Positions 1,754 through 18,513 of a DNA stretch of 26,485 nucleotides are shown here, piece after piece. Within the stretch, counting starts at the first letter, position 1, and each line of letters begins with the position of its first letter. The notes under the pieces were generated by a model that searched no databases, had not been told where the DNA came from, and saw only the letters and a program-made list of their open reading frames with translations. The position numbers and the translations under genes are program-made. The stretch spans positions 1 to 26,485 of IMG/VR virus record IMGVR_UViG_3300025128_000271; one strand, given 5' to 3'. Origin of the DNA: a virus.

Positions 1754-1939
1754 ATGAAAAGTATAATGACAGGATTAATTATAGTAGCTTTGTCAAGTTC
1801 TGTATATCCAGAATACCACGAAGCAGAAAGATATTCAAACAGCGAGATTAAGAAAAAGAAAAAAAAGAAGAAGAAGCTGGCAGAAAAAGGTAAAAAGAAA
1901 AAGAAAGGGTTTTTTTCAAAAGCATTTGGTTCTAAATAA
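1754..1939 (+). CDS. Secreted or membrane peptide with poly-lysine tail
   Basis: 61 aa. A short hydrophobic N-terminus (about residues 4-17) resembles a signal peptide and is followed by an extremely basic tail: nine consecutive Lys at about 33-41, a second run of five Lys, and GFFSKAF near the end. Such a peptide could bind membrane or nucleic acid. The Lys run is encoded by an A-rich tract with an in-frame A-AAA-AAG heptamer, a known -1 slippery sequence; slippage would end the protein within about ten codons. The gene overlaps the next by one base (TAATG). Confidence 0.55.
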   Translation: MKSIMTGLIIVALSSSVYPEYHEAERYSNSEIKKKKKKKKKLAEKGKKKKKGFFSKAFGSK

Positions 1940-2352
1940 TGCCTAAGCAGTTCTACACAATACGGGATTGGTCGGGAGGCATGAACAATCGTAAAGACCC
2001 TAGAGACTTACGAGAAAATGAATATTCTTTTATTGAGAATATGTCAATAGATGCATTAGGAAAGATAAAAACTATAGGCGGTTTATATGATAAAAACGCT
2101 GACTCTGATGGAGATACTAGTTCTACTCCACTTACAGAGCATTTTGTTACGAGAACGGCAAACATAACGGGTGGGGGAGGCTATGGTTTATATTACTTTG
2201 AATCTGATCATAGTAAAAACGCAGATCAAACGATTACAGAAACAAAAAGCGGAACAGCTTTGGCAATCGGAACAAGTAATGGTAATATTAGTTTTGTTCG
2301 TGTCCAAACGACTCCTGACGTACCTGCTGATATTCCTGATCTACCCGGATAA
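1939..2352 (+). CDS. N-terminal part of stabilization-type tail protein (split gene)
   Basis: 137 aa beginning with an aromatic/Gly motif (DWSGGMNNRKDPRDL) and ENEYSFIENMSIDALG, the usual opening of virion stabilization or tail-accessory proteins in marine podovirus-like phages. The frame ends at TAA 2350-2352 and the next large ORF continues in the same frame 12 bp later. Such proteins are normally one long chain, so this is probably the N-terminal portion of a single gene cut by one nonsense codon, or a two-subunit version of it. The ATG is coupled to the preceding stop. Confidence 0.65.
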   Translation: MPKQFYTIRDWSGGMNNRKDPRDLRENEYSFIENMSIDALGKIKTIGGLYDKNADSDGDTSSTPLTEHFVTRTANITGGGGYGLYYFESDHSKNADQTITETKSGTALAIGTSNGNISFVRVQTTPDVPADIPDLPG

Positions 2353-2364
2353 AGTAAGTTAGAG

Positions 2365-5300
2365 ATGCCTACTCCTTCGTCAAGTTATATGCTATTAAAA
2401 GGTGGTACAGATAATGGAAATAGTACCATTTATACTGCTGATGATTCTGCTACTCAAAACCTTATTAAGATTGGTGACATTATCAAAGTTACTGGAACTG
2501 CTAATAATAACGGTATTTACACGGTAATAGATATTACTACAGATGGTACTGCTTTAGGTAGTACAGGGGATGTGTATTACTCGCTAAAGGGTTCTGCGTT
2601 GACAAATGAAAGCTCTGCTGGTAGCACTGATCCGGAAATAGAAGTTATTAGAGAGCCCGGTGATAAGTTACTTGCTTTGGGAGACGTAGACAGTGCAAAT
2701 AATATTGATGTGTGGTCTAATAATTCAGCTACGGATTACTCCAATAACAGCTCAGGAGATGATGATGGCGGTTGGACAACTGAGGCTGTTCATGTTACAA
2801 AGACGGGTGATGATGCACAGTATATTTATTATTTTGTAGACGAAGCGGTTAGAATTTGCAACATAAATGAGTTAAATAATTCTCACATTATGTGGTATGG
2901 ATATATTCAGCGACAGCAGTTTGGTTCTTCAGGGACTCCGGGTATGACTTTTTCTGGTTGGCAAGCTTTTAGAAATTTTTTATACCCACCAAAAACTGCT
3001 CACGATATCTTTTCTTATTGCTATGTAAACTCTGCTGATACAGGCGGTAGCAGTGGAACCAATGCAACTCTTGGTGACGATCCTCACGACAATACAGATG
3101 CGACTAACTATTATAGTGACAATAGAGGTGTTGCTTTCGTAATGAAAACAGCTACAAGCGACTTAAGGTTTAGGGCAAACAATACAGGGTTTTCTGGTTT
3201 CCTATCCTCTGGCCCTAAAACTTTTTTAGGAGATGCGTTAGATGATGCAGATGACGTTATAGATTTTGGAGGAAACAATGGAGATGGCGGGGCTACATTA
3301 GTAGATAGTGATGGTTTTACAGTTAGTAATGCCACATTTGTTGTTAGTAGTGGTGTTGGCGTGTTAGCAAATAGCACAACCGCAAATGGCGGTGCTTATC
3401 TAAGGCTTGTTCTTACTGCTGGAAAACGATATCAGGTTAGTTTTGATTTGGCTTCTAGTAGTAATGCCAACGGTTCTGTTTCTTTAAGTGCTTCGACTTC
3501 TTATGATAGCAATTCTGCTTCTGGTTCTATTAGTTCAAGTGGTGTCAATAACAATACCTTAACAGCACCTTATTATGCAGATGGCTCTTCTTCTGCTTAT
3601 CTTCATTTAAAAGTAGAATCTACAACAAGCGGAGAGCATGCTGATTTTGACAATATAACAGTAAGAAGAATTGATATAATGGCCTTTGAAGACACCAATC
3701 CAACAATGGTTACTGATCAATTTAATGTAAATGATGTAATTACTATAGGTGATACTTTTATAGATTCTACTTGTGACTATAATAATGACCCAACTATTAC
3801 GCACGATGCTAATCCAAATATTGTAGTTGGTTTGCTAGTTTCAGGTACTGGTATACCTGCTGGTGCTTTCATTTCTTCTTTAAATAGTACAACGTCTTTT
3901 GAATTATCTGCAAGCACGACAGGTGGTTCTGTATCGAATGGTTCTCTAACTTTTAATTATCATTTAGGTAGTTATCCAAAAGAGTTTATCTTTGGAGCTC
4001 TGCAAAAATCTACCGGAGGGCCAATGACTGTTCTTCGGTCGTATGGAGGAAAGCTTGGAGGAACCGCTCCTCATGTATACGCAGATGCAGATACTCCAGT
4101 TATATCTAGGGGGTTAGGTTTTAACATTGGGGTATCGGATGGAACAGCAGATGGAGACTGGGGAGCTGGAACATATGAGTTTTTTCAAACCAAAGTATAT
4201 GATGGGCACCAAGAATCTTTACCTGTAAAAATGGGAGACGGAGAAGAAACTACAAATATAGTGGCTGGTACGCATACATCAGCAGGAGGAAAGGCTTTAA
4301 GAATTTCCGTATATGCAGACGTTGGTTATAATGGTCGCATGTCAGGTGCTAGAATATACACTAGGACATCTGGCTCAGATGATGATTTAATTTTACTATT
4401 AGATATAGATATTGTAAAGGGAGTGAGGACTACTTTAGACGGAGATCATGTTTCTTGGTCTTATCAAGTTGGTAAGGGGTATTATGTAGTTGGCCCAGCG
4501 GGAGGAAACGCATCTAGCCCTAACCTAGACACGTACACAACTATCAATGGCTTTAGCCCTGATGTTCATTTTAGTTCCTTAGGGGGTACCAATGAAATAT
4601 TTAAGACTTCCGTTATTGCTAACAGGAGAGCTTTTATAGCAAATGTAAAAACCAAAGAATCTACAGGTGAGTTAAAGCGTTATGGCGATAGAATTATGTA
4701 TAGTGAAATTGGAAAATTTGATACATTTCTTAGTCACAATTTCATTGACGTTTCAAAGGGTGATTATGGTGAGTATGTTGCTTTAGAAACATTTGCAGAT
4801 CGACTATTAGCGTTTAAACACAACATTATTCATATTATAAACATTGCAAGTCCTAGTGTGGCAAGTTGGTATTTAGAAGACACAATTAAATACAACGGTG
4901 TACAGTTTTCTTTTAGCGTTGCCAAAACTAAAAATGGCATTGCTTGGGTTTCTGACGATGGGTGTTATTTGTATGACGGCACACGAGTGACAAACCTTAT
5001 TGATAGAAAAATTGCTGTTAGTAATGCTTCTTACTCTACTACAAATGTCACATGGAATGATTGGTATCGAGGGACTGCTTTTTTAAAAGATGTTATGTTA
5101 GGTTACGATCCAATAAGTAATTCTTTATTAATGTTTAGAAGTCCGAACGATTCAACAACTAATTCTCATACAGGATGGATGTATGATTTTGATACTGGAG
5201 CTTGGGTATATCACACAGGTATTTTTACAGACAATAAAATTTATACAAATTTTATTACAGATTGGAACAACAACTTAACAACAGGAGGTCAGTCTGGTTC

Positions 5301-5685
5301 TCTTGTTTTATTTGAAAAGTTTTTACCAATAAGTAAGTCTGTAGCAAGTCAGCAATTTGTCACAAGAGATATAGATTTTGGAATACCCGGCTTAACAAAG
5401 AAAATTTATAAAGTAGTCGTTACTTATAAGTCAGATGGTGCAGAGACTACACCCTTTACGTATGCAATAGACGGTAAACAAAACTTTGCAGGGGATGGCG
5501 GGGGCACATTTACTGGTAATTTTGTAGACACTTCAGATAAATGGGACGTAGTTACTTTAACTCCTTCTTCTACAATTTCTTGCCAAAGTATACAAATTAA
5601 ATTTACCTCTCCAAGTGCGGGAGTATTTGAAATTAACGATATGTCTATTCAATATAGAGTTATTCGTAACTTGGAGCCAACTTAA
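2365..5685 (+). CDS. Large stabilization-type tail protein, C-terminal part
   Basis: 1106 aa in the same frame as the 137-aa ORF, separated from it only by TAA AGT AAG TTA GAG. The start ATG has no proper Shine-Dalgarno sequence. Around residues 310-440 a Gly/Ser/Thr-rich beta region (ATLVDSDGF...TAGKRYQVSFDLAS...ADFDNITVRR) resembles a carbohydrate-binding jelly roll. At about 490-525 an SGTGIPAGAFISSLN segment resembles repeat modules of phage structural proteins. The second half (GDRIMYSEIGK, DRLLAFKHN, GIAWVSDDGCYLYDG) is typical of the beta-propeller-like body of these proteins. Expected role: tail or neck component of the virion, with the inserted module perhaps contacting host glycans (inference). 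Confidence 0.65.
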   Translation: MPTPSSSYMLLKGGTDNGNSTIYTADDSATQNLIKIGDIIKVTGTANNNGIYTVIDITTDGTALGSTGDVYYSLKGSALTNESSAGSTDPEIEVIREPGDKLLALGDVDSANNIDVWSNNSATDYSNNSSGDDDGGWTTEAVHVTKTGDDAQYIYYFVDEAVRICNINELNNSHIMWYGYIQRQQFGSSGTPGMTFSGWQAFRNFLYPPKTAHDIFSYCYVNSADTGGSSGTNATLGDDPHDNTDATNYYSDNRGVAFVMKTATSDLRFRANNTGFSGFLSSGPKTFLGDALDDADDVIDFGGNNGDGGATLVDSDGFTVSNATFVVSSGVGVLANSTTANGGAYLRLVLTAGKRYQVSFDLASSSNANGSVSLSASTSYDSNSASGSISSSGVNNNTLTAPYYADGSSSAYLHLKVESTTSGEHADFDNITVRRIDIMAFEDTNPTMVTDQFNVNDVITIGDTFIDSTCDYNNDPTITHDANPNIVVGLLVSGTGIPAGAFISSLNSTTSFELSASTTGGSVSNGSLTFNYHLGSYPKEFIFGALQKSTGGPMTVLRSYGGKLGGTAPHVYADADTPVISRGLGFNIGVSDGTADGDWGAGTYEFFQTKVYDGHQESLPVKMGDGEETTNIVAGTHTSAGGKALRISVYADVGYNGRMSGARIYTRTSGSDDDLILLLDIDIVKGVRTTLDGDHVSWSYQVGKGYYVVGPAGGNASSPNLDTYTTINGFSPDVHFSSLGGTNEIFKTSVIANRRAFIANVKTKESTGELKRYGDRIMYSEIGKFDTFLSHNFIDVSKGDYGEYVALETFADRLLAFKHNIIHIINIASPSVASWYLEDTIKYNGVQFSFSVAKTKNGIAWVSDDGCYLYDGTRVTNLIDRKIAVSNASYSTTNVTWNDWYRGTAFLKDVMLGYDPISNSLLMFRSPNDSTTNSHTGWMYDFDTGAWVYHTGIFTDNKIYTNFITDWNNNLTTGGQSGSLVLFEKFLPISKSVASQQFVTRDIDFGIPGLTKKIYKVVVTYKSDGAETTPFTYAIDGKQNFAGDGGGTFTGNFVDTSDKWDVVTLTPSSTISCQSIQIKFTSPSAGVFEINDMSIQYRVIRNLEPT

Positions 5686-6275
5686 TGGCTATTAATGACA
5701 GAGAGATAAGGAAGTTAATTAACACAAAGCAAAGCTCTATGGAGTTTGAGGGAATCCCTTCTTTAAATGGTATGCTTGAAGGGCAAACCGCCATACAGAA
5801 AAAATCAAACTCCCAGTTATCTTTATATAGAAAACAATTTGGAAAGCTGTTTAAATCTCACATGAGTGCAGATGGTAATCAATTTATAGAGAAGAATTTA
5901 TCTGTAGAAAAAAATTTAGAACTAAAAGGCGACTTAAATGCTAGTGGTTTATTAAATGCAAATACCCTTGTTTTTAATAGGGGGCCAGAGTTAACAATAG
6001 CTAGTGGGGCAATTACAGCTACTCACTCTTTTCATTTAGTTGACACTGAAGGAGATGCATCCGCAGATGACTTAGACAGTATTACCGCTGGAACAACTGG
6101 ACAAATTTTAATTTTAAAGCCAGCTAGTGGGTCTAGAGATGTTAGAATTAGAAACGGTGAAGATAATATTTATACATCGGGAGGCTCTAGTTTTTCAATG
6201 AATACAACAAACGATACAGCTATTTTATTAGCAGATGGTTCAAATTGGTATCTTATACTGTCAATAAGTATATGA
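5685..6275 (+). CDS. Virion fibre-like structural protein
   Basis: 196 aa, coupled to the tail gene by TAATG. The N-terminal half is helical and may be an attachment region. The C-terminal half carries a beta-domain pattern (ATHSFHLVDTEGDASADDL, GGSSFSMN, DTAILLADGSNWYL) that recurs in phage tail-fibre or head-decoration proteins of marine phages. Likely a minor virion component or short fibre. No chaperone or enzymatic domain is seen. Confidence 0.65.
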   Translation: MAINDREIRKLINTKQSSMEFEGIPSLNGMLEGQTAIQKKSNSQLSLYRKQFGKLFKSHMSADGNQFIEKNLSVEKNLELKGDLNASGLLNANTLVFNRGPELTIASGAITATHSFHLVDTEGDASADDLDSITAGTTGQILILKPASGSRDVRIRNGEDNIYTSGGSSFSMNTTNDTAILLADGSNWYLILSISI

Positions 6276-6315: not shown

Positions 6316-8046
6316 ATGATTAAACATTCCTCAAAGTCAAAAGGTTTTTTACCCGCAAAGTCTGGCCCTAATCTTACAGGCTTTTATATGGGTAAGTCAA
6401 ACACTCTTCTTCAAATGATGCAAACTGGTGGGCAACCTAGTCGTGGTGCGGCTATGCTTGCTCAAGCTACACAAAAACAAAGCGATATAAAAAAATTAGA
6501 GTCTCAACAAAGAGCAGAAGCCAAGAGACAAAAACGTGGTGCATTATTTGGAAGTGTTGCGAGTAAAGGGTTAGGTTTATTAGGTTCGGCTATAGCTGGC
6601 CCATTAGGAGCCGGAATAGGTTCTGCATTAGGAAAACGTTTAGGAGAGGGAATAGGTGCTGGTAAAAGCAGACAATACGATTCAAGTGGCACAGTGTTTG
6701 GTCAACAAGATTTTAGAGATGTAGAGCAGGCTAGTAGAGATTACACTAGAGGTATGGGAGAAAGAGCTGTAGTTTCCGGTTTAAAAGCTGGGCTTACAGC
6801 GGGGTTTTCACCCGGTGGCGGGATATATGGAGAAGCCGCTAGAAGAGCAGGGGGGCTACGTCCTACTCTTGCTGGAGCTGTTGGTTATGGAGGAGCTTCA
6901 TTGCCGTCCGCTCCTCAGATAGCAGATACGGGAATTATGGATTCAATATTAAATGCTACACCTTCTACTCCTGTTCCTACGGCTTTTAATCCACCAGACA
7001 CGTCTCTTGTTTCAATGCCATTGGGCTTAACAGAGCAACCATTGATGTTTCAAGATGGTGGTAAGGTTCAGCGTGGTGCTTTGATGCAGGCTTTTAAAGA
7101 AGCGGATAAAAATAGAGATGCTATTATGGCATCGGCTAAGGAAAGAATACTTGGTGATGAGACACAGCAGTATAGTCCAGAGTCAGCTCAGCATTTAAAG
7201 AAAGCGGGATTATTGGGTATGACAAAAAGAATGAGCAAAGAAGATTTAGAAGATAGAGCTTTTTTAAGAGAGCAAATAAAATCAAGAGAAGGGTTAGATG
7301 ATATGATGTTTGATTTTGATCCTACTTTGGGGATTGGTGATGTCGCAGTCACTCAGTCATTAGCCCCTAAAGGACTTCGTATGAGCGACAACCCTTTAAC
7401 AAGCGATATATCGTCATTGCGTGCTATTTCTACGTTTAACCCACCTGAAGGAAGCACTTTAGATTCTCCAAGATTTTTAAGGAGTGTACTCTCTTCGTTG
7501 TCTGGTATGGAAGATGGCGGTCTTATCGAGTATGGGTATGGTGGTAGCGTAGGCAACATAGAACAAATTTTAAAGGATGCAGGCATAACAGCAACCTCTC
7601 AGCAGTTAGCTTTGTTTGAGCAGTTTGACCCCACATCTCTTAATAGAATGGCCGAAGGTCTGCAAGATAGCTTATTGTCTGGAACACAGCAAGCACAGCA
7701 AGCACAAGCTGGAACAGGATTTGCAGGTTCTGGAGCAGTGCAACAGGCACAGGTAGAGCAAAGAGAAAGAGCCGGTGAGCAGATGGCTCAAGCAACGGAA
7801 GATGCTAGTAAGGCTTTTGCTTCTGACACTTTAGGAGAGGCGGCTAGTATGATAGGACAGGGTGCTGAGTTTGGCACTGCCGTTTCATTTGTCGCTCCAA
7901 CTGTTAACGTTTTGCCAACGGTAGACCAAGGGGCTGTGAACTTTAATGGTGTTGAATATCAATGGGACAACGACTCTGGGCAGTATATTACATCAGCACA
8001 ATTTGAGCAAGGCATGAGCACTTATTATGATGACCTATATGGTTAA
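6316..8046 (+). CDS. Gly/Ala-rich internal virion protein (putative)
   Basis: 576 aa, preceded by AAGGA. Residues about 73-120 form a Gly/Ala/Leu-rich, membrane-active-looking segment (GLGLLGSAIAGPLGAGIGSA). Two DGG motifs (FQDGGKV and MEDGGLIEYGYGG) and a C-terminal NGVEYQWDNDSGQY motif recur in marine phage proteins of unknown role next to internal virion genes. A Gln/Ala-rich helical stretch lies near residue 455. The position before two large helical proteins suggests a DNA-ejection or core function, but no enzyme motif supports it. Confidence 0.6.
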   Translation: MIKHSSKSKGFLPAKSGPNLTGFYMGKSNTLLQMMQTGGQPSRGAAMLAQATQKQSDIKKLESQQRAEAKRQKRGALFGSVASKGLGLLGSAIAGPLGAGIGSALGKRLGEGIGAGKSRQYDSSGTVFGQQDFRDVEQASRDYTRGMGERAVVSGLKAGLTAGFSPGGGIYGEAARRAGGLRPTLAGAVGYGGASLPSAPQIADTGIMDSILNATPSTPVPTAFNPPDTSLVSMPLGLTEQPLMFQDGGKVQRGALMQAFKEADKNRDAIMASAKERILGDETQQYSPESAQHLKKAGLLGMTKRMSKEDLEDRAFLREQIKSREGLDDMMFDFDPTLGIGDVAVTQSLAPKGLRMSDNPLTSDISSLRAISTFNPPEGSTLDSPRFLRSVLSSLSGMEDGGLIEYGYGGSVGNIEQILKDAGITATSQQLALFEQFDPTSLNRMAEGLQDSLLSGTQQAQQAQAGTGFAGSGAVQQAQVEQRERAGEQMAQATEDASKAFASDTLGEAASMIGQGAEFGTAVSFVAPTVNVLPTVDQGAVNFNGVEYQWDNDSGQYITSAQFEQGMSTYYDDLYG

Positions 8047-8059
8047 AATGAGGTATTAA

Positions 8060-9571
8060 ATGGCAAACGGCCCTAGAAGTATATACAGTAGAAGACAGCG
8101 ATTAGGCCCTGCAAGTTACGAAACTCCCCTTGCAGACTTTTTAGATAGACTGCCAGATTATTTTGATCAGTATCAAAGAAATAAACTAGCACTTGATAGG
8201 CAAAAACTAGCAGATAAAAGATATGAAGATTCTCAGACGTTAGCAAAAGAACAAAGAGAAAAAGAACAAATACGCTATGATCAAGAACAAAAAAGAAGAG
8301 AAGATGAACTTATAACTAGAGCTGGTTTAGTTGCCGCAAATAAAGGTAATTATGATCTTGCAGAAAATCTTTTTAAGGGTGCTGGTAAAGACGATATAGC
8401 GGCTACATTTTCTCAAATGCGAAAAGATGAGCAAGGAATGGAATCTGGTTTATCTGATATAAAAGATGCCTTCTATGGAAATCAGTCTCCTTATAAGATA
8501 GAAGATATGATTAATAATTACCGTGAAGAATACAATGACAAAATTAAAATTAACGACACAAGAGATCAGGCTCTTACAAATTGGATGCAGTCAAACTCTG
8601 AAAAGGTAGCAAAATACAATAAGGGTTTCCTGCCCTTGAAACAGTGGCCTACATCTGGCCCAGATGGACAAAGAGACTTTGATGAATATGATAGAATTAG
8701 AGACAGTATTGAAGAAGACACTAAAGTTTTAAATAGCGGTCAGTTTTTAATGGGCAAGACAGCCAAGTCGGTAGCCAGAGATATAAAAGCAAAAGAAGGA
8801 GAGCTTAGGAGGCTTGAAGGTAAATACAAGACCGAGACAAGGGAAGAATATAACTACAGAACTAAAGCGATGCCAAAAATGTTTGGTGCTCTTTCTGGCG
8901 TAATACCTAGCATGCCTAATTTAGCATTTGGTCAAGGCACTGATCAGGAGTATACTATTTCCTCTGATGAGTCTTTAGCTGATATGGATGTAAATGATGC
9001 GATTGGTCAAAAGCTAACAGCTTTGCAAGAACCGATTGGCCCACAGCCAGATAGTTCAATAGTAAAAAGCACAACTCCTATACAAGATATACTAAATATG
9101 CCTAGTGCACAGGCTCAACCTCAGACAACAGAACAAGACACTACCGAACCTGCTAATTTGCAACTTGGTAAAACTATTAGTGCACAGCCAACAGCTAACT
9201 TTGATGTAAAGGACATATCTGAAGTTAAGGATAACATGTTAAAAAATCCTCAAACAGCTCGCAAATACGCTAAAGATATTAAGAAATTACAAAATTTATC
9301 TAGTAGATTATTAGATGTTCAGAATATACCAAACGAAAAAGGCAGAGATTTTACTAGAAAAAAACTTAACAAAGAAATTGAAAAAATATCTAATGATATT
9401 AAAAAAGAATATGGAGACTTTATTGATCCAAATACAGGTGATTTTAGTAGTGACGAATTTAGTAATGATTTTTTCTCTGTATTAAGTTTGTATAGTGATG
9501 TCCCTCAAGATCAATTAAAACAATTATTCAAAGGTTTTTCTACAGCAAAGCCAGTACAACAAGCAATATAA
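8060..9571 (+). CDS. Coiled-coil internal virion protein (putative)
   Basis: 503 aa, starting 13 bp after the previous stop with GAGG upstream. The first 100 residues are strongly charged and helical (RNKLALDRQKLADKRYEDSQ), a likely coiled coil. The middle is Pro/Gln/Thr-rich and low-complexity (about residues 320-385), and the C-terminus is helical again. The architecture resembles ejection or core proteins of podoviruses. The gene ends in TAA at 9569-9571, in the same frame as the next gene, with only three bases between. Confidence 0.55.
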   Translation: MANGPRSIYSRRQRLGPASYETPLADFLDRLPDYFDQYQRNKLALDRQKLADKRYEDSQTLAKEQREKEQIRYDQEQKRREDELITRAGLVAANKGNYDLAENLFKGAGKDDIAATFSQMRKDEQGMESGLSDIKDAFYGNQSPYKIEDMINNYREEYNDKIKINDTRDQALTNWMQSNSEKVAKYNKGFLPLKQWPTSGPDGQRDFDEYDRIRDSIEEDTKVLNSGQFLMGKTAKSVARDIKAKEGELRRLEGKYKTETREEYNYRTKAMPKMFGALSGVIPSMPNLAFGQGTDQEYTISSDESLADMDVNDAIGQKLTALQEPIGPQPDSSIVKSTTPIQDILNMPSAQAQPQTTEQDTTEPANLQLGKTISAQPTANFDVKDISEVKDNMLKNPQTARKYAKDIKKLQNLSSRLLDVQNIPNEKGRDFTRKKLNKEIEKISNDIKKEYGDFIDPNTGDFSSDEFSNDFFSVLSLYSDVPQDQLKQLFKGFSTAKPVQQAI

Positions 9572-9574
9572 AGC

Positions 9575-12500
9575 ATGCCAACAAACCCAGATTCATATAG
9601 GTCTTTTTCGGATGCTCTAGGTCTGGCTTACAATAATCCAGACAAGGTAAACAGTAAAACGTTAAACAACCTATACGATACATCGGATTATTTAGAAGCA
9701 GATGCAAATCCTAAAACCGATCAGTATAGCTATGCTGATTTTCTAGTAGAAAGAAGTACAGAACTTCAAAAAGTTAAAACATCATCTGAAGATGAATCTT
9801 TGTATGGTTTTATACCCGGAGGGTGGCTACCAGATTGGGTTAAGGACGGATACAATAGGAGCATAACGGGTTTGTCTGAACAGATAATATCTGGAGAAAA
9901 AAGATTTGAGCTAGGGGATTACAAACCAGAAACTTTACAAGATATAGGGGCTACTGTAATATCTTTTATACAGCCACTAGACTTTGCAACGATGGCGGCT
10001 GGTGGTGGTATTGGAGGATTCGCCGCTAAACAAGCATTAAAATCTGGTGCAAAAGAAGCTCTAAAAAAAGGACTGTCAAAAACAGCTACTAATAAGATAG
10101 TAACTAATAAATTAGATGATCTTGCAGTAAAAGAAATATTGGGCAATGCTCCAAATAAAGCAATACAATTAATGGTAAATGGTGGAGTTGCACCTACGGT
10201 AGCGAAGAAAGCTGTAGAGCAGGCCGCTCCTAGAGTAGTTCATAAAGCCTTAATTGAAGGTGCGGCTGGAGCAACAGGATTAGGATTTTATCAGGGCTTA
10301 GCCACAGGGCAAATGACAAAGATAGAAAGCGGTGATTTTGATGAGGCTATGGCTTTAAAAGAAGGGATTAAAGGTAGTGCTTTAGGTGCTGTAACAGCAG
10401 GGACTGGGCCGATTGTTAGGTCTGCTTTGAAAAGGTTAAATCCTGCAACTCAAACCCTTGCCGTAAAAGCTGTAGAGACTGCTGAGTTTGGTACCCTTGC
10501 TCCGATTCTTAGTGGAGAAGATATAAATGTAGAGGGGTATATACATGCGGCGGGTGTTATAGGTGGCTTAACGGCACAGAAAGCGGCGTTAAGGTATGCT
10601 AAAAAAGGTATAGATGCTGTAAAGTCTAAGCAGTACGAAAACGCAATGGATGCTGAAACTACAGCAAGATACGTAATGGAGGAGACCAGTAAAGACGTTC
10701 AAAAGAAAAGTGTTCGTAATATGATAGAAACTAATGAAGTTTTTACGGATAGAAATGGAACAGAATTTGATCGTTTACGTTTTAACGATAAGCAAAAAAC
10801 GGTTCAGTTGCGAAACAAGCAGACTCAGAAAGTAGATAAAATTAATTACGATCAATTTGACCAATTATTATTTAGAAGAAAAAGCAAAGCTAGAACAGAA
10901 AAAGGTCTCGCTACATACAGAAATAATCAAATAAAAAACCTTACAAAAGAATTAAAATTAGATACTAAAAAATTTAATGAGCATATAGATGCATCAAGAC
11001 TAAAGCCACCAGCAGAAGGTGTAAAAAATAAATACTCCTTAAACTCTTTAAGTGGCGTAGAAAGGTTTAAGCTGTTAAATGAGCTTAGGCATGAGAAGAG
11101 AGTTCTTGATTTAGGTAAGCAGTTAACGGAAGCAGGTTGGGAGGGTAGTTTACTACCAAAGAAAAGATTTTTTGATGATCTGTTTCCCACTCTTCCTAAG
11201 TTTTACAGGCAAACAAAAAATAGAGGAACAACACAATTAGAAACATTGTCATTTAGAGACTTTGATCGCTTTAACATTAGAGAGCTAACATTGACTGGTG
11301 ACTTTATACAGCAGTTTAGAAGTGCAGGTGTATTTAAAGGCGGTTTATTTAAAAGAAAAAAGTTATTAGAATACAATCAATCTTTAGCTGACAAGCTTGA
11401 AGACCCTAGATACGCCATTGCAAATAATAAAAACTTACCAGACTTTCAAAAAGTACAAGAGATTAGAAAAACATTTGATGGTATATGGGAGTTGGCTAAT
11501 AAGGCGGGTATTGACCTAGGGCCTAAAGAACAATTTTATTTTCCTAGAATGATAAAGCCTGAGTTTTTAGGAATATTTAATAAAGACATAGCAAATATAG
11601 CAAAGAACAATGCAGAGTTAGCATTTGATAGTAAGCTAGCAAATAATAAAAACTTTCAAGACTTGCTAAAGTCTTACATAGACACAAAACAGTTTGATCC
11701 TGCTACTATTAATGTACTGCAAAAAATGGGTGGAGTTGTCCCGCCAGAAACGTCAGTATCTTCTGCTTCAATACCTGTAATTGGCAAAACAAGAGCAAAG
11801 CAAGCTGAGATAAATAGAAAAATGGCTCAAGCTTTTTATGAATTAAATCGTGCAGTTACGGTTCAGTTTGCTAACACAGCAAAGAACTTAGAAGTTGCTA
11901 GAAAAGGGGTTGACATACCAAAAGAATTTATGGAGAGAGATGTCAGATTAGTTCTTTCAAGATACTCAAAACAAGTGGCAAACAGAATATCTTTTGTAGA
12001 AACCTTTGGCAAGAAGGGCGAGGTTATTACTAGCAGAATCAATGCACTTCATAAGTCTTCTAAGGATGCTTTAAAAGCAGGCGATTTAAAACTTTCAAAA
12101 CAGTTTAGCGAATCAAGTAGATTGTTAAAACAGTTATTTTCTGCTTCCACAAATAAAATTGAGATTGATCCATCGTATAACTGGAAGACACCAACTGCAA
12201 GAAAGTTTTGGGGAGACATTGTTGATTTCCAAATAGGTACAAAAATTGGTTTAGGTTTTGCTACAATACCAAACATAACACAGACCTTTATATCTACCGC
12301 AATACGAACAGGGTATAGGCCTTTGATAAGGTCAATGTATAATTTATCTGTAAATCCTGTAGTAGATTCTAAAACTGGATTAAGATACAGGGATGCAATT
12401 AGGAAGTCTGGTGTTTCTAATTTATCTGTATTTCAAATGATATCTAATTTAGAGCCTTCCGATAGGTTCATGGGAAAGTTTGCTGAATTAACAACAAGCG

Positions 12501-16329: not shown

Positions 16330-16740
16330 TTACTTCATCTCCTCAATCTTATCAAGACAGGCTTGTAAATTGTCTAAAGTAATGTTGTTATTTTTTAACT
16401 GATACAAGACTTTATTTTTCTCTTTGGCTTTTAAACCATCAACCGCATTGAGGATTTGTTCTCCAATGTATTGCTCACTTGTTTGTTCAACAACTGTGCC
16501 ATTAAATGTGTCCTTAACCTTTTCTTGAAGGTCTGTATCTGTCAGGATTTTATTCTCTTCATCTTTATCAAGCATTTCTTTGATACCGTGATATCCATGT
16601 ATGATAAACTGTACCCACTTCTCCATTGTTTTCATATTGTCTGATGTGAGGCCTTGTCCCTGTTCTATGAAGGCTACTGCGACACCATGTCGTATCTTGC
16701 CTTCTGTTATTTTATCCCAATCGGGTTGTTTGTCGCTCAT
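16330..16740 (-). CDS. Conserved phage protein next to exonuclease, unknown
   Basis: 136 aa from ATG 16740, chosen because it overlaps the upstream stop (TATGA) and has GGAG about 8 bp upstream; the longer reading frame would extend into the nuclease gene. The N-terminus PDWDKITEGKIRHGVAVAFIE resembles a phage family that accompanies recombination exonucleases. The rest is acidic and helical. A recombination cofactor is a guess from context. Confidence 0.65.
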   Translation of the reverse strand: MSDKQPDWDKITEGKIRHGVAVAFIEQGQGLTSDNMKTMEKWVQFIIHGYHGIKEMLDKDEENKILTDTDLQEKVKDTFNGTVVEQTSEQYIGEQILNAVDGLKAKEKNKVLYQLKNNNITLDNLQACLDKIEEMK

Positions 16741-17465
16741 AGATCGACTCCTTTCTCTTTGTATCCACCACCGCATATTTCATAGAAGTTGCAATACTTA
16801 GGGTTGCACTCCCATTTATATACAGGAGCTACACCTATCTCAATGGGTGGATTACCTGTTTCAAAATTCTTTTTAACGTGATACCAATACTCTTGTGCTT
16901 TTTTGATGTATGATGTTGATATTACTTTTTCTTTCATTCTTGAATTGTCTTTGTTGTAATATAATAACGCTAACTTTTTCAGTTTGTTCCCAGTATGTTC
17001 TTCAAACCACCAACCGTATGTACCTAGCTGTATGTTGTAATTAACAGCAGGATTAGGATCGGGGTTACGACCGAACATCCCTTTCCACTTCCAAGCATTG
17101 CAAGTTTTAATATCGTACAAAGCGTTATCTTCAACAATAATAACATCTAGGAAGCCACGCACATTTACATCGGGTAATCGTATCTCACGTTCTATCATTA
17201 TTTGAGAACCGTTGATTCTTGCATAATCCATTAGTGCTTCTTGAATATCTCCATGCACTAAGTCTCCAAGCCTAAACAATCTCATAGTGTTGTCATCTAT
17301 TTCTTTTGGCTCTACCTCTGCGACATGTTGGAAATAATGTTTTCTCATGCACATCCCCGCTGAAGAGGCATGAAACCATTGTTCTTTGCCTTGATATCTT
17401 TTTTTCTGGTGAAGGCTATTGCCCTTCCGCAACCAGTCTTCATATATCTTTTGTATGTTTAACAT
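16737..17465 (-). CDS. Cas4/RecB-like Fe-S exonuclease
   Basis: 242 aa from ATG 17465, which has AAAGGAA about 6 bp upstream; a longer frame to 17546 would cross the structured leader. It has the full set of Cas4/RecB-nuclease motifs: SAGMC39 (first cluster Cys), LGDLVH71, GFLD107, Y-D118-I-K120, the Q146xxxY150 motif and a C-terminal C220-x4-C225-x5-C231 triad. Four Cys in a 1+3 arrangement are expected to hold a 4Fe-4S cluster. In phages these act as exonucleases in homologous recombination or end processing; there is no CRISPR locus here. It heads the recombination operon and its transcript begins with a nested hairpin. Confidence 0.85.
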   Translation of the reverse strand: MLNIQKIYEDWLRKGNSLHQKKRYQGKEQWFHASSAGMCMRKHYFQHVAEVEPKEIDDNTMRLFRLGDLVHGDIQEALMDYARINGSQIMIEREIRLPDVNVRGFLDVIIVEDNALYDIKTCNAWKWKGMFGRNPDPNPAVNYNIQLGTYGWWFEEHTGNKLKKLALLYYNKDNSRMKEKVISTSYIKKAQEYWYHVKKNFETGNPPIEIGVAPVYKWECNPKYCNFYEICGGGYKEKGVDL

Positions 17466-17490
17466 TTTTGTTCCTTTAGTATATGGTAAA

Positions 17491-17565
17491 GGGCAGGACT
17501 TTTGAGGTGTGTAGTTGCGGAGTGGATCGGAAAATTGTTGGAGCAAAAACCGATCCTGCCTGCCC
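17491..17565 (-). promoter_or_regulatory. Nested inverted-repeat leader before the nuclease gene
   Basis: Two perfect 7-bp inverted repeats are nested: GGGCAGG (17491-17497) with CCTGCCC (17559-17565), and GGATCGG (17524-17530) with CCGATCC (17550-17556). On the leftward RNA the 5' arms are only two bases apart, and the outer 3' arm ends about 25 nt before the ATG. This could be a translation-control leader, an attenuator or a protein-binding site. No U-run directly follows, so it is not a typical terminator. Confidence 0.55.
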
Positions 17566-18003: not shown

Positions 18004-18513
18004 TCACTTATCATTGTTTTGTTCCCGTTTTTCTACATATTCTTTTATAATATCTTGTATATGTTTAAAGTACCCAAACTGTTTGTGTGTTTTTATTTGG
18101 TGGCAATTACGACAACGTATCTTACACTTGTTTATTTCTGTCTGTACAGTTTCCCATTTGTAACCCGCTCTCACAAGAGCACCTACTCCCTCAGTCCGTC
18201 TTTTGTTCTGCCTTTTCTTAACTCCCTTAACGTGGTCAAATTCCAGAACTCGATAGTCATTCTCACCACAGTCTACACAGCCGTGAATAAAGTACTCCAT
18301 AAGTATTTTCTTATAGTTTTCTCTTACTACACGAGCCTTTCTTTCTTTGACTTGCTGTATTCTGTGTTGCCTATGAGACTCATACCAAGTATTGTTATGA
18401 TACGTCTTTTGACAGGCCTTGCAGGAGTATTGTCTACCATCGGGTTTAGCACGATTGATATAAAACTCCTTGCGGGGTTTGTCTTCCTTACAAGTTGCAC
18501 ACCTCTTTAACAT
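18004..18513 (-). CDS. HNH endonuclease with N-terminal zinc finger
   Basis: 169 aa. The N-terminal module has C5xxC8 and C31xxC34 around a KPRKEFY...DGRQYSCKAC motif. The HNH domain follows: C79xxC82, F-D93-H94 (first His), then C134xxC137-H138 and H143. This is a complete zinc-containing HNH fold that cleaves DNA with a divalent metal. It may be a homing-type or accessory phage endonuclease. Its Shine-Dalgarno sequence is weak (TTGAG next to ATG), unlike its neighbours. The opposite-strand frame of similar length is a shadow. Confidence 0.85.
   Translation of the reverse strand: MLKRCATCKEDKPRKEFYINRAKPDGRQYSCKACQKTYHNNTWYESHRQHRIQQVKERKARVVRENYKKILMEYFIHGCVDCGENDYRVLEFDHVKGVKKRQNKRRTEGVGALVRAGYKWETVQTEINKCKIRCRNCHQIKTHKQFGYFKHIQDIIKEYVEKREQNNDK

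Follow-up and report, generated by a model that had tools for sequence, protein, structure and literature searches.

Why should the gene for a viral tail protein be interrupted by one in-frame stop codon? The question is raised by an IMG/VR virus record of 26,485 bases, referred to here as the window. The initial annotation described two ORFs, at 1939-2352 and 2365-5685, in the same frame and separated by TAA AGT AAG TTA GAG, and this was confirmed from the sequence. It read them as a tail stabilization gene and left four explanations side by side: a recent nonsense mutation, a sequencing or assembly error, stop readthrough, or two polypeptides with the second made by reinitiation.

The first ORF, the N gene (1939-2352, + strand), encodes 137 amino acids and ends in DLPG, followed by the stop codon TAA (2350-2352, +). 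It carries the conserved motif RDWSGGMN..RDPRDL..NE..I.NMS.D..GKIK..G.L, and its product is assigned below as the N-terminal nozzle chain. The intergenic linker (2353-2364, +) is 12 nt long and reads AGTAAGTTAGAG. The predicted RNA fold of the linker and junction is not more stable than that of shuffled sequences (z = 0.58), and no stable fold was found there. The C gene (2365-5685, +), which begins MPTPSSSYMLLKGG, encodes 1106 amino acids, the main nozzle chain. Its beta-propeller and C-terminal part (3964-5682, +; residues 534-1106) is the region whose model was matched to podophage nozzles.

Within the C gene, an inserted module of 71 amino acids (3751-3963, +) has no counterpart in L001 and L002, which are 94% identical to the window. 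Copies of this module with 35-59% identity are present at residues ~61-131 in many relatives and at residues ~295-370 in L035, L040, L043, L068 and L136, while a weak copy lies inside the longer N protein of L021. Judged from these sequences, the module looks like a domain moving within these genes. On either side, the gene pair is packed tightly against its neighbours. The TAA of a lysine-rich gene of 61 amino acids (1754-1939, +) overlaps the ATG of the N gene as TAATG, and the ATG of a downstream gene of 196 amino acids (5685-6275, +) overlaps the stop of the C gene in the same manner (TAATG). The upstream protein with its run of lysines is conserved at 61-68 amino acids, and in L042 its place is taken by an M15-type endolysin gene. 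For the downstream product, Pfam gave a match below threshold to the C-terminal beta-sandwich domain of a depolymerase.

To place the window among its relatives, 144 loci were collected from IMG/VR by searches that used the N protein itself and profiles built for N and C, and the stop-to-stop frames of every locus were matched against the profiles. Both parts were present at 138 of the 144 loci and only one part at the other 6; a single ORF holding the N and C parts was seen at none (0/138). The split is common to every relative in the family, including contigs of independent metagenomes. The close IMG/VR relatives L001, L002 and L003 have the same split with the same 12-nt gap, the stop codon being TAA in the window and L003, and TAG in L001 and L002. 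Once junctions identical over 300 flanking bases were removed, 78 distinct junctions were left, some of them close to one another and not to be counted as 78 independent events. Their stop-to-start gaps are -1 nt (20 junctions), 0 (15), 1 (2), 2 (10), 3 (16), 9 (1), 11 (1), 12 (9), 15 (2) and 20 nt (2). The N gene stops with TAA at 60 junctions and with TAG at 18, and the C gene, whose start codon is kept in all relatives, begins with ATG at 76 and with GTG at 2.

It is nearly certain that the two-gene organisation is normal for this group of phages. The initial annotation supposed that homologues usually form one long chain, which is wrong for the window's own family and right for distant relatives, as discussed below. 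It had also argued that homologues split at the same place, with two separate virion proteins, would make the split a normal one, and at the DNA level the comparison of 138 loci finds them so split. The chance that a recent nonsense mutation, or a sequencing or assembly error in one contig, produced the pair is practically negligible. Such an event would agree with frames that are otherwise continuous and one codon apart; it is contradicted by the presence of the split in all relatives, among them contigs from independent metagenomes, by the use of two different stop codons, and by a second gene that retains its start codon and a conserved N-terminus. Both of these early suggestions are, therefore, set aside.

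Another possibility is programmed readthrough, by which some full-length fused protein would be made besides the short N chain. The two ORFs are indeed in frame in the window and at 43 of the 78 junctions. The shared frame is nevertheless not special, as all three relative frames occur (43 junctions in the same frame, 2 and 33 in the other two), and 35 of the 78 pairs do not share a frame. At some of the in-frame junctions there is a double stop, L023, L025 and L078 have TAG TAG, the stop switches between TAA and TAG, and the C start codon is kept in every member.

Selection on the coding sequence speaks in the same direction. A comparison of the window with L001 gives a dN/dS of 0.024 for N and of 0.071 for C, which indicates purifying selection on both sides of the stop; near the junction it is seen as well, in the final 40 codons of the N gene and the opening 40 of the C gene for the same pair. 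The linkers of 12-15 nt are too short for a selection test of their own. Between relatives, the changes in linker codons are mostly amino-acid-changing, as in GAG to AAT (window vs L001) or AGC to AAC and GAT to GGT (L032 vs L037), whereas flanking codons change mostly silently. This pattern is the expectation for two genes with a short spacer and not for a read-through linker. Readthrough would call for an in-frame continuation that is conserved and for constraint on both stop and linker, and the family shows neither. Rejected as a general explanation by the out-of-frame junctions, the double stops and linker codons not conserved as protein, readthrough is very improbable.

How, then, is the C gene translated? 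Translational coupling needs overlaps or very short gaps and is steeply distance-dependent; a gap of ~20 nt nearly abolished it in the pairs tested, and coupled pairs often encode subunits of one complex (PMC10666635). In the phage family, the gap is between -1 and 3 nt at 63 of the 78 junctions, within the overlap or very-short-gap range of termination-reinitiation. With 12 nt, the window itself is a borderline case at the long end, above the overlaps of -4/-1 nt typical of coupling. The claim that the second ORF has no Shine-Dalgarno sequence was nearly right, the best upstream match being the 4-mer TAAG, which is the linker's only anti-Shine-Dalgarno match. Many free-standing genes of the window phage, on both strands, have AAGGA, AAGGAG or TAAGGAG, while several starts packed on an upstream stop (350, 1939, 2365, 9575) have little Shine-Dalgarno sequence.

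The spacing suggests that ribosomes reaching the end of the N gene go on to translate the C gene. The ribosomes that have just completed the N gene would translate it either by termination-reinitiation or by coupled initiation at a weak Shine-Dalgarno sequence. Such coupling would yield near-equal amounts of the N and C chains, with a presumed stoichiometry of 1:1. Alternatively, translation of the C gene could start separately, at a weak ribosome-binding site of its own and not with the terminating ribosome. The gap of 12 nt, being at the long end, leaves room for this in the window, and Shine-Dalgarno matches of at least 4 nt are somewhat enriched at C starts (46/78, compared to 29% at internal ATGs). 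The 63 of 78 gaps of 3 nt or less argue against it, as does a window start with TAAG only where free-standing genes have matches of 5-7 nt; independent initiation is considered the less probable course, yet one to be reckoned with. Of the explanations first offered, two polypeptides with the second made by reinitiation is the one that fits the conserved two-gene split, as far as sequence can tell. In L050 (5077-5102), the 20-nt gap between N and C holds a mini-ORF, ATG TAT ATA AAT TTA TAA, which could hand the ribosome on to the C start; in L038 the ATG of such a mini-ORF is absent.

What protein do the two genes encode? Searches with the window's two proteins gave nothing useful in PHROGs and Pfam, where the small ORF had no match, nothing relevant among PDB sequence profiles, and, together with divergent family members, no significant tblastn match in GenBank phages. 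Structure was more informative. Residues 534-1106 of the C protein were modelled with 45 sequences to moderate quality (pLDDT 67.7, pTM 0.45). In a Foldseek search of the PDB, the best 16 matches were all podophage tail chains, among them SU10 (5.7e-11), Pa223, P22 gp10 (1.5e-8), crAss001, GP4 and T7, with low TM-scores of ~0.3 to the model. A second alignment method (VIA) placed nozzle chains in the 14 best positions, with Z 13.1-15.0 over 286-405 residues, while other beta-propellers reached Z of 12.3 at most, mostly over ~200 residues. The moderate model, with its top matches all nozzles, falls within the podophage nozzle family of beta-propellers. The solved nozzles that were matched are all single chains. 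A read-through construct of N and C from the relative L074 gave an AlphaFold2 pLDDT of 43, a model of too low quality to reveal packing of N on C. Among the distant relatives, matches were to a linked set of PHROGs that covers virion, head-closure and tail proteins (for instance phrog_511, phrog_3287 and phrog_578). Based on the fold model, the gene pair probably forms the tail nozzle, of the T7 gp12 / P22 gp10 type, of a short-tailed phage; the term 'tail stabilization' was thus right in kind, since the nozzle proteins matched include P22 gp10.

The neighbourhood agrees with a block of virion genes. In the 47-kb relative G001, terminase, portal (phrog_156, and more weakly the head-tail adaptor phrog_332) and major head protein genes lie upstream of the nozzle genes; the window begins too near the gene pair to show them. 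The T7-type portal family of Pfam (PF12236) had no match in nine related records, nor in any control, so that this result is uninformative. Elsewhere in the 47-kb relative (L145, 13109-17349), two proteins of the amidoligase family (phrog_2443) are encoded on the strand of the DnaB-like helicase. The window encodes a protein of the Cas4-like exonuclease family at 16737-17546 (-) and an HNH endonuclease at 18004-18513 (-).

Beyond the family, the nozzle is found in one piece. IMG/VR was scanned for DNA encoding WSGGMN, and the counts, being drawn from the matches listed, are lower bounds. Among these matches were at least ~50 N genes of the window family, all of them short ORFs, and at least four distant relatives (L217, L218, L220 and L176). 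L217 and L218 have a single ORF of ~1158 amino acids, with the N motif followed by the C part, while the ORF of L220 ends at the contig end. A further search gave L267 (1021 amino acids) and L268 (1220 amino acids), each a single chain in which the N motif precedes the C part. An isolated phage, Paenibacillus phage API480, has the same order in the single chain of gp11 (663 amino acids), which the N-family profile matched with a probability of 91%. Identity is low, only ~17-26%, where the N- and C-family profiles match the one-chain proteins. A scan for further one-chain relatives with the alignment of L217 and L218 returned just the two queries.

L176 encodes N and C in separate genes, of 329 and about 750 amino acids, which lie ~3 kb apart. 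The region at 7593-11480 in this relative has a tyrosine integrase gene and three other genes between the nozzle parts, one of the three being like the GP4 fibre gp80. An insertion may possibly have broken the nozzle gene of L176, which looks like a second break at another place, and at least two such breaks seem to have occurred in the nozzle protein. The same relative favours a different history, in which the N protein is a separate tail component, such as an adaptor-like ring, that was never in the nozzle chain of this lineage, the one-chain forms being later fusions. Since the solved nozzle matches are all single chains, the other distant relatives have one chain, and the arrangement in L176, where an integrase gene lies between the two parts, resembles a second break, this history is judged unlikely. 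The one-chain state is the commoner one among distant relatives; by parsimony, from unrooted comparisons, we infer for the window family a one-chain ancestor and a change by fission, not by fusion.

Rather than a mutation, the split represents conserved fission in a known virion protein. The favoured account, held with good confidence, is an old and fixed fission of the nozzle gene, with two polypeptides probably made by translational coupling and the N chain expected to complete the platform in trans. The ancestral single chain would have been interrupted in variable sequence that follows the N-terminal motif, and this state would then have become fixed in an entire family of uncultivated short-tailed phages. 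In T7 gp12, the N-terminal 45 residues give three strands of the platform barrel, and C-terminal sequence supplies the remainder (PMC6702177). In the N protein, the conserved stretch of the first 50 residues, which corresponds to the N-terminus of the one-chain relatives, takes the position of these T7 strands. Completion of the platform in trans by the N chain is, for this reason, the simplest model: by analogy with T7, the chain of 137 amino acids would fold onto that of 1106 and provide the platform, which binds the adaptor ring, with its N-terminal strands. A nozzle fixed as two polypeptides throughout the clade, with its adaptor-facing N piece as a separate trans-complementing subunit, is a bolder proposition, put forward tentatively and with more doubt than trust. 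If it is true, the separate N piece could enter assembly at another step or be swapped, or it could permit rearrangements of the opening nozzle that are beyond a single chain.

In the literature covered, from which most subscription papers fall outside, no precedent for a split nozzle was found. A family that keeps two nozzle genes through large sequence divergence would be a natural split-protein system in an essential viral machine. Such a split would show at which point a break is tolerated in the nozzle and provide a means of testing how the platform assembles. It is also a warning for annotation, as the small ORF, having no match in PHROGs or Pfam, would be entered as hypothetical, and the large one might be mistaken for a truncated gene.

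Compared with known systems, the pair resembles other coupled genes for the subunits of a complex, which have very short gaps or overlaps and encode parts of one assembly (PMC10666635). It differs from the usual coupled pairs in that its subunits are pieces of what is elsewhere one protein, its gap is 12 nt, and its coupling is predicted. API480 gp11 and the proteins of L217, L218, L267 and L268 have an N motif and a propeller region of the window's kind, with both parts in one ORF. The nozzle proteins of P22 (gp10), Sf6 (gp8) and GP4, known as 'stabilization' or head-closure proteins, match the fold of the C part over 286-303 residues (Z 13-14.6), and with P22 gp10 the match reaches its C-terminus. 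These are single chains of ~470-520 residues, whereas the window's C chain alone has 1106 amino acids, with large insertions; a homologue of the GP4 fibre protein gp80 is also present in L176. T7 gp12 has a beta-propeller nozzle fold like that of the C part, but in one chain, and sequence similarity to the window proteins was not detected with PDB sequence profiles. In T7 gp12, the N-terminal residues enter the platform in cis, which suggests the role that a separate N chain may have in the window phage.
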